Source: Bacteroidaceae bacterium
GTDB taxonomy: Bacteria; Bacteroidota; Bacteroidia; Bacteroidales; Bacteroidaceae
Reading direction: 5' to 3'
NCBI GenBank assembly: GCA_017408685.1
Contig: JAFQUE010000087.1
Span: 1-40,496, forward strand
DNA length: 40,496 bases
Of this stretch, positions 14,287 through 21,846 are shown in pieces. Each line of letters starts with the position of its first letter. The first letter of the stretch is position 1. The notes beneath the pieces are model-generated. The model did not search any database and was not told where the DNA came from. It worked only from the letters and a program-made list of their open reading frames with translations. Both the position numbers and the translations under genes were made by a program.

Positions 14287-14721
14287 TCAATTCAGTATTT
14301 CTCCTTCCGGAGTGACGTTCACTACAAATTCAGTTTCATCACCACGGTCAAGTTCAATGGAATAGTAACTTATTGTCTCGCGCTCAATGAAATCAATACT
14401 GTCAACCCTGTAACCGTGATAAGCCTCGGCTATGGCCGAATATACCGGTTGCGGCAACTCGGTCCCGCTTACATCCCATGAGGTATACACCCACCTGCTC
14501 TGCGAATCGAAATATACATCCTTGACCTTGCCGTCGTGTAATATTTCAATCTCAAGAAGACCATTCTTCTCATACTCCGAAGCACGCAGAGTTGCTCCCG
14601 GATATCTACGCTCGATAAACTCCATGACAGCATTGTTGGGGGCGGTTTTCACACTGTCGTCCTCGTCACAGGCGACGAGGACGGGAAGTGACAGCATTAT
14701 CAACAGAACAAGTTTCTTCAT
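14287..14721 (-). CDS. PepSY-like (BLIP-fold) lipoprotein
   Basis: A 144-residue exported protein. The signal peptide MKKLVLLIMLSLPVLVAC ends in a lipobox with Cys18. It is followed at once by DEDD, an acidic run resembling the lipoprotein export signal that sends lipoproteins to the outer face of the outer membrane in Bacteroidota. The mature part has two related units of about 55 residues, each with a helix then a strand pair (NAVMEFIERRYPGATL and PQPVYSAIAEAYHGYRV begin them), as in the PepSY-like/DUF2874 family of inhibitor-like folds. Ligand unknown. It follows a paralogous gene by 43 nt and precedes a strong terminator. Confidence 0.82.
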   Translation of the reverse strand: MKKLVLLIMLSLPVLVACDEDDSVKTAPNNAVMEFIERRYPGATLRASEYEKNGLLEIEILHDGKVKDVYFDSQSRWVYTSWDVSGTELPQPVYSAIAEAYHGYRVDSIDFIERETISYYSIELDRGDETEFVVNVTPEGEILN

Positions 14722-14764: not shown

Positions 14765-15205
14765 TTAATCGTCGATATCCACAATCCTGAAGTCATTGTT
14801 GAATTTAAGTTCAAGCCTGTTCGAGAGTTTCACTTCATACCCCCTGCTGTCACGCTCAATCTTCAGAACCTTTTCGGCAGAATAGTTTTCTGCAATGTAC
14901 TTCTTTATTGGAGCAGGGACGATGGCTGAAGGAACCTCACCGTAACGGCAATCGACCTCTTTCCATGCACCTTTGTTGGTAAACTCAAGTTTAGTACCAT
15001 CGGCAAGCACAACCTCATAGGAACGCTCCAGGAAATCAGTTTCATGCTTTGCATAGGAAATTTTGACGCCGGCAAAATTATCGTTGATGAAACTCTGCGC
15101 CTGAGCCGGCAACTGGTTCTTGTTTATAACCTTATCGCCACCACCGAAGGCCAATACTGCACTGAAGGAAAATACCACTGCTAACAGAACAAAAATCTTT
15201 TTCAT
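14765..15205 (-). CDS. Exported PepSY-like (BLIP-fold) protein
   Basis: A 146-residue protein with a cleavable signal peptide (MKKIFVLLAVVFSFSAVLAF, likely cut after the Ala at position 19) and no lipobox, so it is probably periplasmic. The mature chain has two PepSY-like units: LPAQAQSFINDNFAGVKISY with YEVVLADGTKLEF, then VPAPIKKYIAENYSAEKVL with YEVKLSNRLELKF. Proteins of this type (PF11396-like) are common next to two-component systems in Bacteroidota and are thought to bind or inhibit periplasmic partners; the function is not established. It is the first gene of the unit and has a candidate response-regulator operator upstream. Confidence 0.83.
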   Translation of the reverse strand: MKKIFVLLAVVFSFSAVLAFGGGDKVINKNQLPAQAQSFINDNFAGVKISYAKHETDFLERSYEVVLADGTKLEFTNKGAWKEVDCRYGEVPSAIVPAPIKKYIAENYSAEKVLKIERDSRGYEVKLSNRLELKFNNDFRIVDIDD

Positions 15206-15304: not shown

Positions 15305-15339
15305 CAAAGGTTATACATGATTCTGAAATGAATCTGAAA
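15305..15339 (-). promoter_or_regulatory. PepSY operon promoter with TTTCAG tandem operator
   Basis: Read on the minus strand, TTTCAG occurs twice (15339-15334 and 15328-15323) with an exact 11-bp period, each within ATTTCAGA. Ten bp after the second copy is AACCTTTG (15312-15305), one base off the TAnnTTTG -7 box. No -33 TTTG is present, which suits an activator-dependent promoter. The same layout occurs before the response-regulator gene at 19857-19891. Confidence 0.65.
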
Positions 15340-15359: not shown

Positions 15360-15396
15360 AAATGTGGATGCCCAAAATATTTAGGCATCCACATTT
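15360..15396 (-). terminator. Intrinsic terminator of the PAP2 gene
   Basis: A perfect 13-bp stem (AAATGTGGATGCC with GGCATCCACATTT) encloses an 11-nt loop. On the minus strand it is followed by eight T residues. It lies 21 nt after the stop of the PAP2 gene and just upstream of the PepSY operator. Confidence 0.88.
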
Positions 15397-19856: not shown

Positions 19857-19891
19857 TTTCAGTTTATTTTCAGAAACCGTCCCTACCTTTT
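19857..19891 (+). promoter_or_regulatory. Response-regulator operon promoter with TTTCAG tandem operator
   Basis: TTTCAG at 19857-19862 and 19868-19873 repeat with an exact 11-bp period. Ten bp later is TACCTTTT (19884-19891), one base from the TAnnTTTG -7 box. The order and both spacings equal those at the PepSY promoter (15305-15339). No -33 TTTG is present. The site overlaps the extra N-terminal codons of the longer response-regulator frame and so supports the ATG at 19904. Confidence 0.65.
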
Positions 19892-19903: not shown

Positions 19904-20587
19904 ATGAAACTGCTTGTTATAGAAGATGACGCCTCGCTACGTGAGATAATGCAACGCGCATTGCAGAGCGAAGGCTATGTCGTAGAGACAGCCCCGACAT
20001 ATTTTGACGCCTGCGACAAGATTGCCGGCTACAGTTACGATTGCATAATGCTCGACATAATGCTGCCCGACGGCAACGGTCTGAAACTGCTTGAGGAGAT
20101 AAAAAAAAGCGGAAAGGAAGAGAGGGTTATAATAATATCGGCGCGAGACTCACTCGACGACAAGATAACCGGTCTTGACCTTGGTGCCGACGACTACCTT
20201 GCCAAACCGTTCTACATGGCCGAACTCTCGGCACGCATAAAGAGCGTAATGCGCCGCGGCAGCGGTGCGGTGAACAACAGCATGAAAGCAGGGAACATAA
20301 CCCTTGACCTGGGCAGCCGCACCGTAAAGGTAGACGGCAAGGATGTACCGCTACTTAAAAAGGAGTTCGACATACTGCTCTACTTCATGCAACGCCCGGG
20401 TCACATTGTAGACAAAGCCGTGCTTGCCGAGGCCGTGTGGGGCGACCACATTGACATGGTCGACAACTTCCAGTTTGTCTATGCCCAGATAAAGAACCTC
20501 CGCAAGAAACTCGCCGAAGCAGGCGCCGACATCAACGTAAAGGCCGTCTACGGCTTTGGTTACAAATTCACAGACACCGAAGAATGA
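19904..20587 (+). CDS. OmpR-family response regulator
   Basis: A 227-residue DNA-binding response regulator. The receiver domain starts MKLLVIEDD (acidic pair D8/D9), with the phosphoacceptor Asp51 in DCIMLDIMLPDG, the switch Ser79 and the conserved Lys101 in YLAKPF. The C-terminal winged helix (about 130-227) has WGDHIDMVDNFQFVYAQI as recognition region and ends KAVYGFGYKF. The chosen ATG at 19904 begins exactly at the canonical receiver; a 20-codon extension runs through the promoter. Its stop overlaps the kinase start (ATGA). OmpR-type proteins usually bind direct repeats about 11 bp apart, which matches the tandem site in its own promoter and at the PepSY operon. Confidence 0.95.
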   Translation: MKLLVIEDDASLREIMQRALQSEGYVVETAPTYFDACDKIAGYSYDCIMLDIMLPDGNGLKLLEEIKKSGKEERVIIISARDSLDDKITGLDLGADDYLAKPFYMAELSARIKSVMRRGSGAVNNSMKAGNITLDLGSRTVKVDGKDVPLLKKEFDILLYFMQRPGHIVDKAVLAEAVWGDHIDMVDNFQFVYAQIKNLRKKLAEAGADINVKAVYGFGYKFTDTEE

Positions 20588-21846
20588 AACTCATCTACCG
20601 CGTTACATTAAGGCTCTCCATTGTGCTGTTGCCCATTCTTCTCATTTGGGCAACAGTATTCTACTTCTCAATGGTAAACGAAATAAATGACGAGACAGAC
20701 GACAGCCTTGAGGACTATGCCACCATGCTCATACGCCGCACGCTCACAGGCAGCGAACTACCCGGGCAGAGCGACGGCAGCAACAACACCTACAGCATTG
20801 AACTGCTCGGCAACAGCGGACAGCACAAACCTTATATACATTTCGAAGACCGCAGAGTGTATATCCCCGAGAAGAGAGAGACCGAACCCGCCCGCACCCT
20901 CACAATGACCTTTGCCGACAGCGACGGCAACACATACCTTCTCACCGTGTCCACGCCCACATTCGAGCGCGAGGACCTGCTGCTCTCTGTGCTATGGCAC
21001 CTTATATTGCTCTATGCCACACTCACACTCACCATACTTGCCGTAACGGCACTCATCTTCAACTACAGCATGCGCCCGCTTTACCGCCTGCTTTCCTGGC
21101 TCGACAACTACAACCTTGGCGACGGCGTAGAGAACCTTCCCGTGTGCACACACACAACAGAATTCAAGAAACTGACCGAGAGCGCCCGGAGCACAATCGA
21201 GCGTGCCGAGAAATATTACGAGCGCCAGAAACAGTTCATAGGCAACGCCTCGCACGAATTGCAGACACCGCTTGCCGTACTGGGCACACGCATTGAGTGG
21301 ATGATTGACAACACCCCGCTCACCGAGGAACAGTTTGCCGAACTCGCCAAAATGCGCCAGTCACTGCACCGTTTGAGTCGCCTCAACCGCACTCTGCTGC
21401 TAATTTCAAAGATTGAGAACGCACAATTCAACGAAAAGCACGACGTTGACTTCGTAGAACTCACAAACAATGAACTTGAAATTTACCAAGATATTTATGC
21501 CGGCAAAGAGATACAATGCAACACAGAAATGCCTGCGCGTTTCATTGTTAGCATGGACGAATCATTGGCAACGACACTTGTCACCAACCTATTGAAGAAC
21601 GCCTTCCTGCACACCGCTGACGGCAGTACAATAGACATTTCCCTGTCGAACGGCACTCTCACCGTGAGCAATAGCGGCGAGGAAACCCTTGACGCCACCC
21701 GCCTCTTCGACCGCTTCTACACAAGCGGCAAAAGTGGTTCCACCGGTCTGGGTCTTGCACTTGTGAAGTCAATATCGGAGTTCTACAAATTCGGGCTGGA
21801 ATACAGTTTCACCGGCGGGAAACACCACTTTACTGTAAGGTTCTAA
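20584..21846 (+). CDS. Membrane sensor histidine kinase
   Basis: A 420-residue kinase that is the cognate partner of the preceding regulator (4-nt overlap). TM1 lies at about 12-30, a periplasmic sensor region of about 100 residues at 31-130 has no recognisable domain, and TM2 is at about 138-160, followed by a short HAMP-like linker (NYSMRPLYRLLSWLDNY). The H-box is FIGNASHELQTPL with phosphorylated His224; the N-box is VTNLLKNAFLHT; the G-box is STGLGLALVKSI. The DxGxG G1 motif is reduced (VSNSGEETLD), as in several Bacteroidota kinases. The periplasmic PepSY proteins at 14287-15205 are candidate signal modulators. Confidence 0.94.
   Translation: MKLIYRVTLRLSIVLLPILLIWATVFYFSMVNEINDETDDSLEDYATMLIRRTLTGSELPGQSDGSNNTYSIELLGNSGQHKPYIHFEDRRVYIPEKRETEPARTLTMTFADSDGNTYLLTVSTPTFEREDLLLSVLWHLILLYATLTLTILAVTALIFNYSMRPLYRLLSWLDNYNLGDGVENLPVCTHTTEFKKLTESARSTIERAEKYYERQKQFIGNASHELQTPLAVLGTRIEWMIDNTPLTEEQFAELAKMRQSLHRLSRLNRTLLLISKIENAQFNEKHDVDFVELTNNELEIYQDIYAGKEIQCNTEMPARFIVSMDESLATTLVTNLLKNAFLHTADGSTIDISLSNGTLTVSNSGEETLDATRLFDRFYTSGKSGSTGLGLALVKSISEFYKFGLEYSFTGGKHHFTVRF

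Follow-up and report, generated by a model that had tools for sequence, protein, structure and literature searches.

Background

PhoB boxes take the place of the -35 element, at a distance of about 10 bp to the -10 element, and contact with the polymerase is made there. OmpR-type regulators are described as binding two direct repeats through head-to-tail DNA-binding domains (PMC4415409, PMC4660055), and the PmrA box of Salmonella and Klebsiella (PmrA/BasR) consists of two hexamers that lie head to tail, 5 bp apart (PMC3973317, PMC4660055). A similar tandem site occurs twice in a 40,496-nucleotide stretch of a Bacteroidaceae bacterium genome (contig JAFQUE010000087.1 of assembly GCA_017408685.1, hereafter the window), where TTTCAG doublets precede an operon encoding two exported PepSY proteins (PepSY1-PepSY2) and an operon encoding an OmpR-family response regulator (RR) and a sensor histidine kinase (HK). 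The doublet is very probably the binding site of this linked RR, which is predicted from sequence to control the PepSY1-PepSY2 operon as well as its own, RR-HK. TTTCAG differs from the PmrA half-sites CTTAAG/xTTAAT (PMC3973317), and the phylum and the sigma factor are also different; the pho box of Escherichia coli PhoB differs in sequence, regulon and sigma factor (PMC4415409).

The DbfQRS system of Vibrio cholerae likewise couples a small exported PepSY protein with a two-component system (histidine kinase and response regulator); it is a system in which DbfQ binds the kinase sensor domain and shifts the kinase to phosphatase activity, and in which the dbfQRS promoter reports the activity of its own system (PMC12714742). 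There the PepSY gene lies inside the operon and encodes a PepSY domain, whereas the proteins considered here belong to PF11396 (PepSY_like), are linked to the kinase by a promoter motif and, in several loci, are not encoded next to it. DbfQRS-like modules are named for Proteobacteria, Terrabacteria and Fusobacteria, and 'Bacteroid' occurs 0 times in the main text of that paper (PMC12714742). With regard to the survey's limit of four genes from a two-component system, PepSY1 of the window stands at the limit and carries PF11396, not the PepSY domain surveyed.

The window HK scores over the cut-off of the PorY family (NF052314), and a PorX-like PglZ gene is present elsewhere in the genome. The Porphyromonas gingivalis member of this family passes phosphate to PorX, and porY and porX are described as not forming one genetic unit (PMC5005315), whereas here an OmpR-type partner gene lies directly 5' of the kinase gene in 46 of 46 HK loci. 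The window HK thus departs from the PorXY layout of the type IX secretion system (T9SS), which has a kinase without its own OmpR-type partner. No earlier description of the site was found in the open-licence PMC literature, either by motif letters or under the topic of PepSY and two-component systems, and we regard the arrangement as a variant of known PepSY-linked two-component modules and PmrA/pho-type boxes.

The two promoters and their genes

The PepSY promoter, on the minus strand, has its upstream half-site at 15334-15339 (full 11-mer TTTCAGATTCA) and its downstream half-site at 15323-15328 (full 11-mer TTTCAGAATCA), followed by the ten-base spacer AATCATGTAT and the -7 octamer AACCTTTG at 15305-15312. 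At the RR-HK promoter, on the plus strand, the half-sites at 19857-19862 and 19868-19873 are followed by the ten-base spacer AAACCGTCCC and the -7-like octamer TACCTTTT at 19884-19891. All four half-sites were read directly, and the coordinates of both promoters confirm the layout reported by the first-pass annotation, namely a TTTCAG doublet of 11-bp period with an octamer exactly 10 bp further on.

The Bacteroides sigma factor is reported to recognise TAnnTTTG as its -7 element and, near -33, a TTTG motif that was not findable in another member of the phylum (PMC7366714). At neither window promoter does a TTTG stand at the normal -33 distance (48 bases before each octamer were checked, and the sole TTTG in them lies 41 bases from the PepSY octamer); the -33 place is occupied by the doublet, in agreement with the earlier remark that the -33 element is missing. 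We infer a class II-type activator. One RR dimer would read the two head-to-tail 11-bp repeats (TTTCAGAWTCN at PepSY sites) over the -33 place, with the -7 element always 10 bp past the second hexamer, and would probably assist transcription initiation by the Bacteroidales primary sigma factor. A tandem OmpR-type dimer at this place agrees with the period of 11 bp, the distance of 10 bp and the lack of a -33 element. A bound RR might instead repress by covering this region and blocking RNA polymerase, as the sites overlap the promoter core and the sign of regulation is not readable from sequence. Repression is nevertheless unlikely: a promoter with no TTTG at the normal -33 distance would probably be weak when unaided, and a 10-bp gap to the -7 element that stays fixed across families fits contact with the polymerase, as at pho boxes. 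Activation by the RR is therefore the reading that we prefer.

PepSY1 (14765-15205, minus strand) is an exported 146-aa PepSY_like protein (PF11396, 109.8 bits; cut-off 28.3) that resembles PDB entries 3db7 and 3due, and PepSY2 (14287-14721, minus strand) is a second protein of this kind (33.8 bits; cut-off 28.3). Judged by eye, the signal peptide of PepSY1 looks normal and the N-terminus of PepSY2 is lipoprotein-like (VLVAC). The RR (19904-20587, plus strand) combines a receiver domain (Response_reg, 98.9 bits; cut-off 30.2) with a winged-helix Trans_reg_C domain (60.4 bits; cut-off 26.2), as expected of the OmpR/PhoB family. Its best NCBIfam model is PmrA (185.9 bits, under the equivalog cut-off of 330) and BasR/PmrA is its nearest solved structure by sequence; it differs from PmrA in two extra residues near the recognition helix. 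The HK (20584-21846, plus strand; NF052314, 437.2 bits, cut-off 350) contains HisKA and HATPase_c, and an ATGA overlap joins the RR stop to the HK start. PAP2, epimerase and RNase R genes separate the PepSY genes from RR-HK. The RR ATG at 19904 stands 12 bases past the -7-like octamer (19884-19891), and a very short transcript leader should be expected there.

Rarity and conservation of the site

The exact doublet TTTCAG-N5-TTTCAG occurs twice in the whole assembly of this organism, both times in the window (reversed control, 0), as the first-pass annotation had noted in seeing no other such doublet there, and 0.0055 copies are expected in the window under an independent-base model. Doublets with up to two mismatches number five in the window against 4.0 expected from shuffles; these loose versions are near chance, and only the exact form is therefore informative. 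A three-mismatch scan of the same genome with a 35-letter consensus recovered only the PepSY site and no third site; the RR site carries four mismatches to the consensus and hence falls outside such a scan. PF11396 is found in two places in this assembly, both in the window. One RR-HK pair, the two exact doublets and these two PF11396 genes, with no others found, would thus form a closed circuit within an assembly of 2,251,037 bases that is 86% complete and in which a further target may be missed.

In 44 genomes of the genus, 31 exact doublets contrast with 1 in the reversed control, a frequency well away from chance. The 30 loci examined among these 31 place the doublet before a PepSY1 homologue in 16 cases, before the RR gene in 2 and before neither in 12. 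The last group (L006, L007, L008, L011, L013, L015, L016, L019-L022 and L026) has no window-protein match downstream and was set aside as chance. The 16 PepSY sites mostly read TTTCAGATTCW TTTCAGAATC, that is, an 11-bp repeat TTTCAGAWTCN that occurs twice and extends beyond the hexamer. The hexamers were fixed by the search and the other shared letters were not demanded: TT at positions 8-9 of the first repeat is invariant, AAT follows the second hexamer in 16/16 sites, and TTTG (14/16) or TTCG (2) stands at the fixed -7 distance. The two genus RR sites have TTTT and TTTG at -7; the close relative L005 carries TAGTTTTG at the octamer position of the RR promoter.

A composite pattern (doublet, N10 and nAnnTTTG, with up to one mismatch) gave 196 hits in 99 of 301 genomes of the family, against 12 reversed hits counted from scan rows. 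One hundred loci, corresponding to about half of these hits, yielded 105 site readings with at least one site counted twice: 69 stand before PepSY, 6 before an RR and 14 before another downstream gene, 9 lie in an antisense open reading frame (ORF), 5 lie in a sense ORF and 2 have nothing downstream. PepSY was called by a profile built from the loci themselves, and 7/7 such proteins given to Pfam matched PF11396. The PepSY proteins are the most constant target; their gene directly follows the HK gene in many relatives, and in others none lies nearby.

The site also accompanies the kinase. A PorY-family kinase (NF052314, E up to 1e-60) is encoded in 123 of the 301 family genomes. Two or more sites are present in 59/123 genomes with the HK versus 0/178 without it, and any site in 81/123 versus 18/178; because the genomes are related, Fisher values on this co-occurrence are not true probabilities. 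The doublet might instead be bound by a regulator other than the RR, such as PorX, a further protein of the OmpR type, or an alternative sigma factor that recognises the repeat, and the PorX-like PglZ gene, together with the phosphorylation of PorX by the PorY-family kinase of P. gingivalis (PMC5005315), speaks for it. Yet the site tracks this HK across genera and stands before the HK's own RR, an 11-bp head-to-tail repeat is the target of an OmpR-type dimer, and drift of the site accompanies a change in the recognition helix of this RR (a single event, described below). Another regulator is a shade less probable than repression, and the linked RR remains the favoured reader of the site.

When the order was scanned with the 35-letter consensus at no more than two mismatches, 13 of 295 genomes had a match, giving 16 sites in all, and the control gave 0. 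Fourteen of them lie outside the family, in nine other families, and all 14 precede PepSY (13) or an RR (1), as called with the profile used for the family and a search for the RR. In L185 and L188 the longest ORF starts before the site; the true start was inferred, so that both were counted as PepSY/RR by reading. The conservation in orthologous promoters that the first-pass annotation had proposed as a check is thus found both within the genus and beyond the family, and the site, as predicted from these scans, defines a small regulon whose range takes in at least ten of the order's families. Conceivably, the two window promoters could be alike by coincidence, or because both derive from one promoter that was duplicated, and no regulator would then be shared, a view favoured by the commonness of loose versions. 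The counts in the organism's own genome, in the genus and under the base model reject chance as the source of the exact form (they do not do so for loose versions), the surroundings of the two window sites look unlike each other by eye, and the genus, family, co-occurrence and order scans all contradict this explanation, which is barely credible. A common regulator, the RR, is preferred.

A spacing statistic from a variable-gap scan was dropped because 7-bp tandem repeats in genome G007 swamp the count. Among the matches listed, G007 has many such repeats (TTTCAGT / TTTTCAC / TTTCCGT), which are unrelated to the 11-bp doublet; variable-gap counts in G018 and G038 are as high as in G007.

Drifted sites and the recognition helix

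Twenty further kinase loci were taken, and for 16 of these the genome had given no hit to the composite motif. Upstream of the kinase-adjacent PepSY gene, these loci often carry TTCCCAAATCT-TTCCCAAAT or repeats of the TTCCAG type, in which the 11-bp period and the distance to TTTG are unchanged. Repeats matching at 7 or more of 10 positions with the same spacing occur before 19 of 49 PepSY/RR ORFs (operons contribute their second genes to this set), before 2 of 65 ORFs of other kinds and in 18 of 2,450 shuffled regions. TTTCAA doublets precede PepSY in a Rikenellaceae (L104) and an Alistipes (L105) locus. In several relatives without TTTCAG, the promoter geometry thus outlasts the repeat sequence.

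PmrA Val192 is reported to contact bases (PMC4660055). Under the covariation filter, 55 of 74 RRs had a site. The recognition-helix residue aligned to Val192 is Ala in 39 of these, with T as the third base of the first half-site in 38/39, and Ser in the other 16, with C at that base in 16/16; Ala thus goes with TTTCAG rows and Ser with TTCC rows. This covariation is suggestive of the RR as reader of the site and is not proof of it; it is counted as suggestive only because it corresponds to one change on the tree.

Links to solved PF11396 structures

In genome G317 the PepSY gene right after the HK encodes 3due (BVU2987; identical over 126 aa), and the doublet is present at one mismatch in its promoter (L068). 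Another locus, L240, is 100% identical to 3db7 (BT0923) and has a hybrid site, TTCCCAAATCTTTTCAGATTC, with a -7 element at the same distance, and five relatives of L240 (proteins 90-98% identical) have a hybrid site at the right distance as well. The BT0923-type site, degenerate in its first half, was recognised by eye; the automatic scans found no site in these promoters at up to two mismatches, and none at 7 of 10. No RR or HK was found near BT0923-type genes within those 3.4-kb loci. L242-L245 also show, by eye, TAGTGACGCTAT-like repeated units upstream of the hybrid site, which were not seen in L240 or L241.

The 2010 structure paper on BVU2987 and BT0923 had not yet settled what PF11396 proteins such as BVU2987 do, and its main text is without the terms two-component, histidine kinase and operon (PMC2954215). 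Higher levels of the BT0922-BT0923 operon are reported for iron limitation and for colitis; in a table of iron- and colitis-regulated loci, the values for BT0922 and BT0923 are 3.7 and 5.0 in one column and 4.1 and 3.2 in the other, columns that are unmatched to condition (PMC10434189). These table values are a hint at the signal for the circuit.

A wider target set in some relatives

In genus g14, which includes G317, 8 of the 14 other downstream genes among the family readings look like one secreted calcineurin-like phosphoesterase family (L118, L132, L133, L138, L143, L147, L148 and L152; Pfam was run on two of the eight). In genus g30, six genomes chosen for three to five sites each contribute 24 sites, which precede 5 PepSY genes, 1 RR gene, 6 genes for mutually alike proteins, 3 for small lipoprotein-like proteins and 1 for an alpha-L-fucosidase, the other 8 sites being unclear. 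The two mutually alike proteins given to Pfam are DUF2490, and no Pfam match was found for the small lipoprotein-like protein (two of three tested). The DUF2490-type loci of g30 (L223, L227, L228 and L230-L232) perhaps represent lineage-specific growth of the regulon; DUF2490 also follows a site in a g3 genome (L042). Hence the regulon in some relatives seems to take in other envelope proteins, and the common theme of the targets is the cell envelope.

Evidence against the proposed regulon

Several observations weigh against a site dedicated to the RR and its PepSY targets. The RR promoter of the window itself has TTTT at -7, not TTTG. As many as 12/30 genus doublets look like chance, 30/105 family readings concern neither PepSY nor an RR, and only six of the g30 sites precede one of these genes (five PepSY, one RR). 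The motif is missing at one mismatch in 42/123 HK genomes, and each of the 18/178 HK-less genomes with the motif carries one site. The Ala/Ser switch happened once on the tree and so does not count as independent proof; among the 55 covariation sites, L086 at least looks spurious; and three RRs with Thr at the same position (L090, L185 and L192) are without a site under the filter, L185's own site being TTTCAG. Set beside the conservation, the fixed spacing and the linkage to the kinase, these points leave the overall idea of the first-pass annotation, as a prediction, well supported.

A predicted envelope-signalling circuit

The promoter code and its linkage to the sensor point to a compact cell-envelope signalling circuit, in which the RR would control both operons, RR-HK and PepSY1-PepSY2, and the exported PepSY proteins would most likely act back on the extracytoplasmic domain of the HK, probably as negative feedback. 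Feedback on the kinase is the preferred role for the PepSY proteins because DbfQ binds its kinase's sensor domain and favours phosphatase activity; drawn as it is by analogy, this role has about an even chance of being correct.

Neighbouring features

An intrinsic terminator 3' of the PAP2 gene (15360-15396, minus strand) has a 17-pair stem and a T tail (mean in shuffles, 0.0). The PepSY site sits just downstream of this strong terminator, which parts the PepSY promoter from the preceding PAP2 gene. PglZ has two matches of equal score and opposite orientation on one contig (G000:C60:23393-23971, minus; 118788-119366, plus), which represent either a real duplication or an assembly artefact.

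Implications

Across Bacteroidales, a PorY-family kinase may have the PF11396 PepSY proteins as its feedback ligands, in an envelope-sensing circuit of the DbfQRS kind held together by promoter code and not by gene order. In some lineages this circuit would have come to include DUF2490 proteins of the outer membrane and secreted phosphoesterases, and the T9SS PorY of P. gingivalis would be a branch of the same kinase family working with PorX. We put this general picture forward tentatively, as a possibility with somewhat less than an even chance of holding in full. For a widespread protein family with solved structures, the site offers a regulator, a binding sequence and a set of targets that can be tested, and the RR may provide a model for an OmpR-type activator at Bacteroidales promoters, which have a -7 element and often no clear -33 element. 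The iron and colitis data on BT0922-BT0923, whose promoter has a related site, suggest relevant conditions (PMC10434189). The cis-regulatory signature would allow much of the regulon to be read from Bacteroidales genomes, including those of gut commensals with working genetics.
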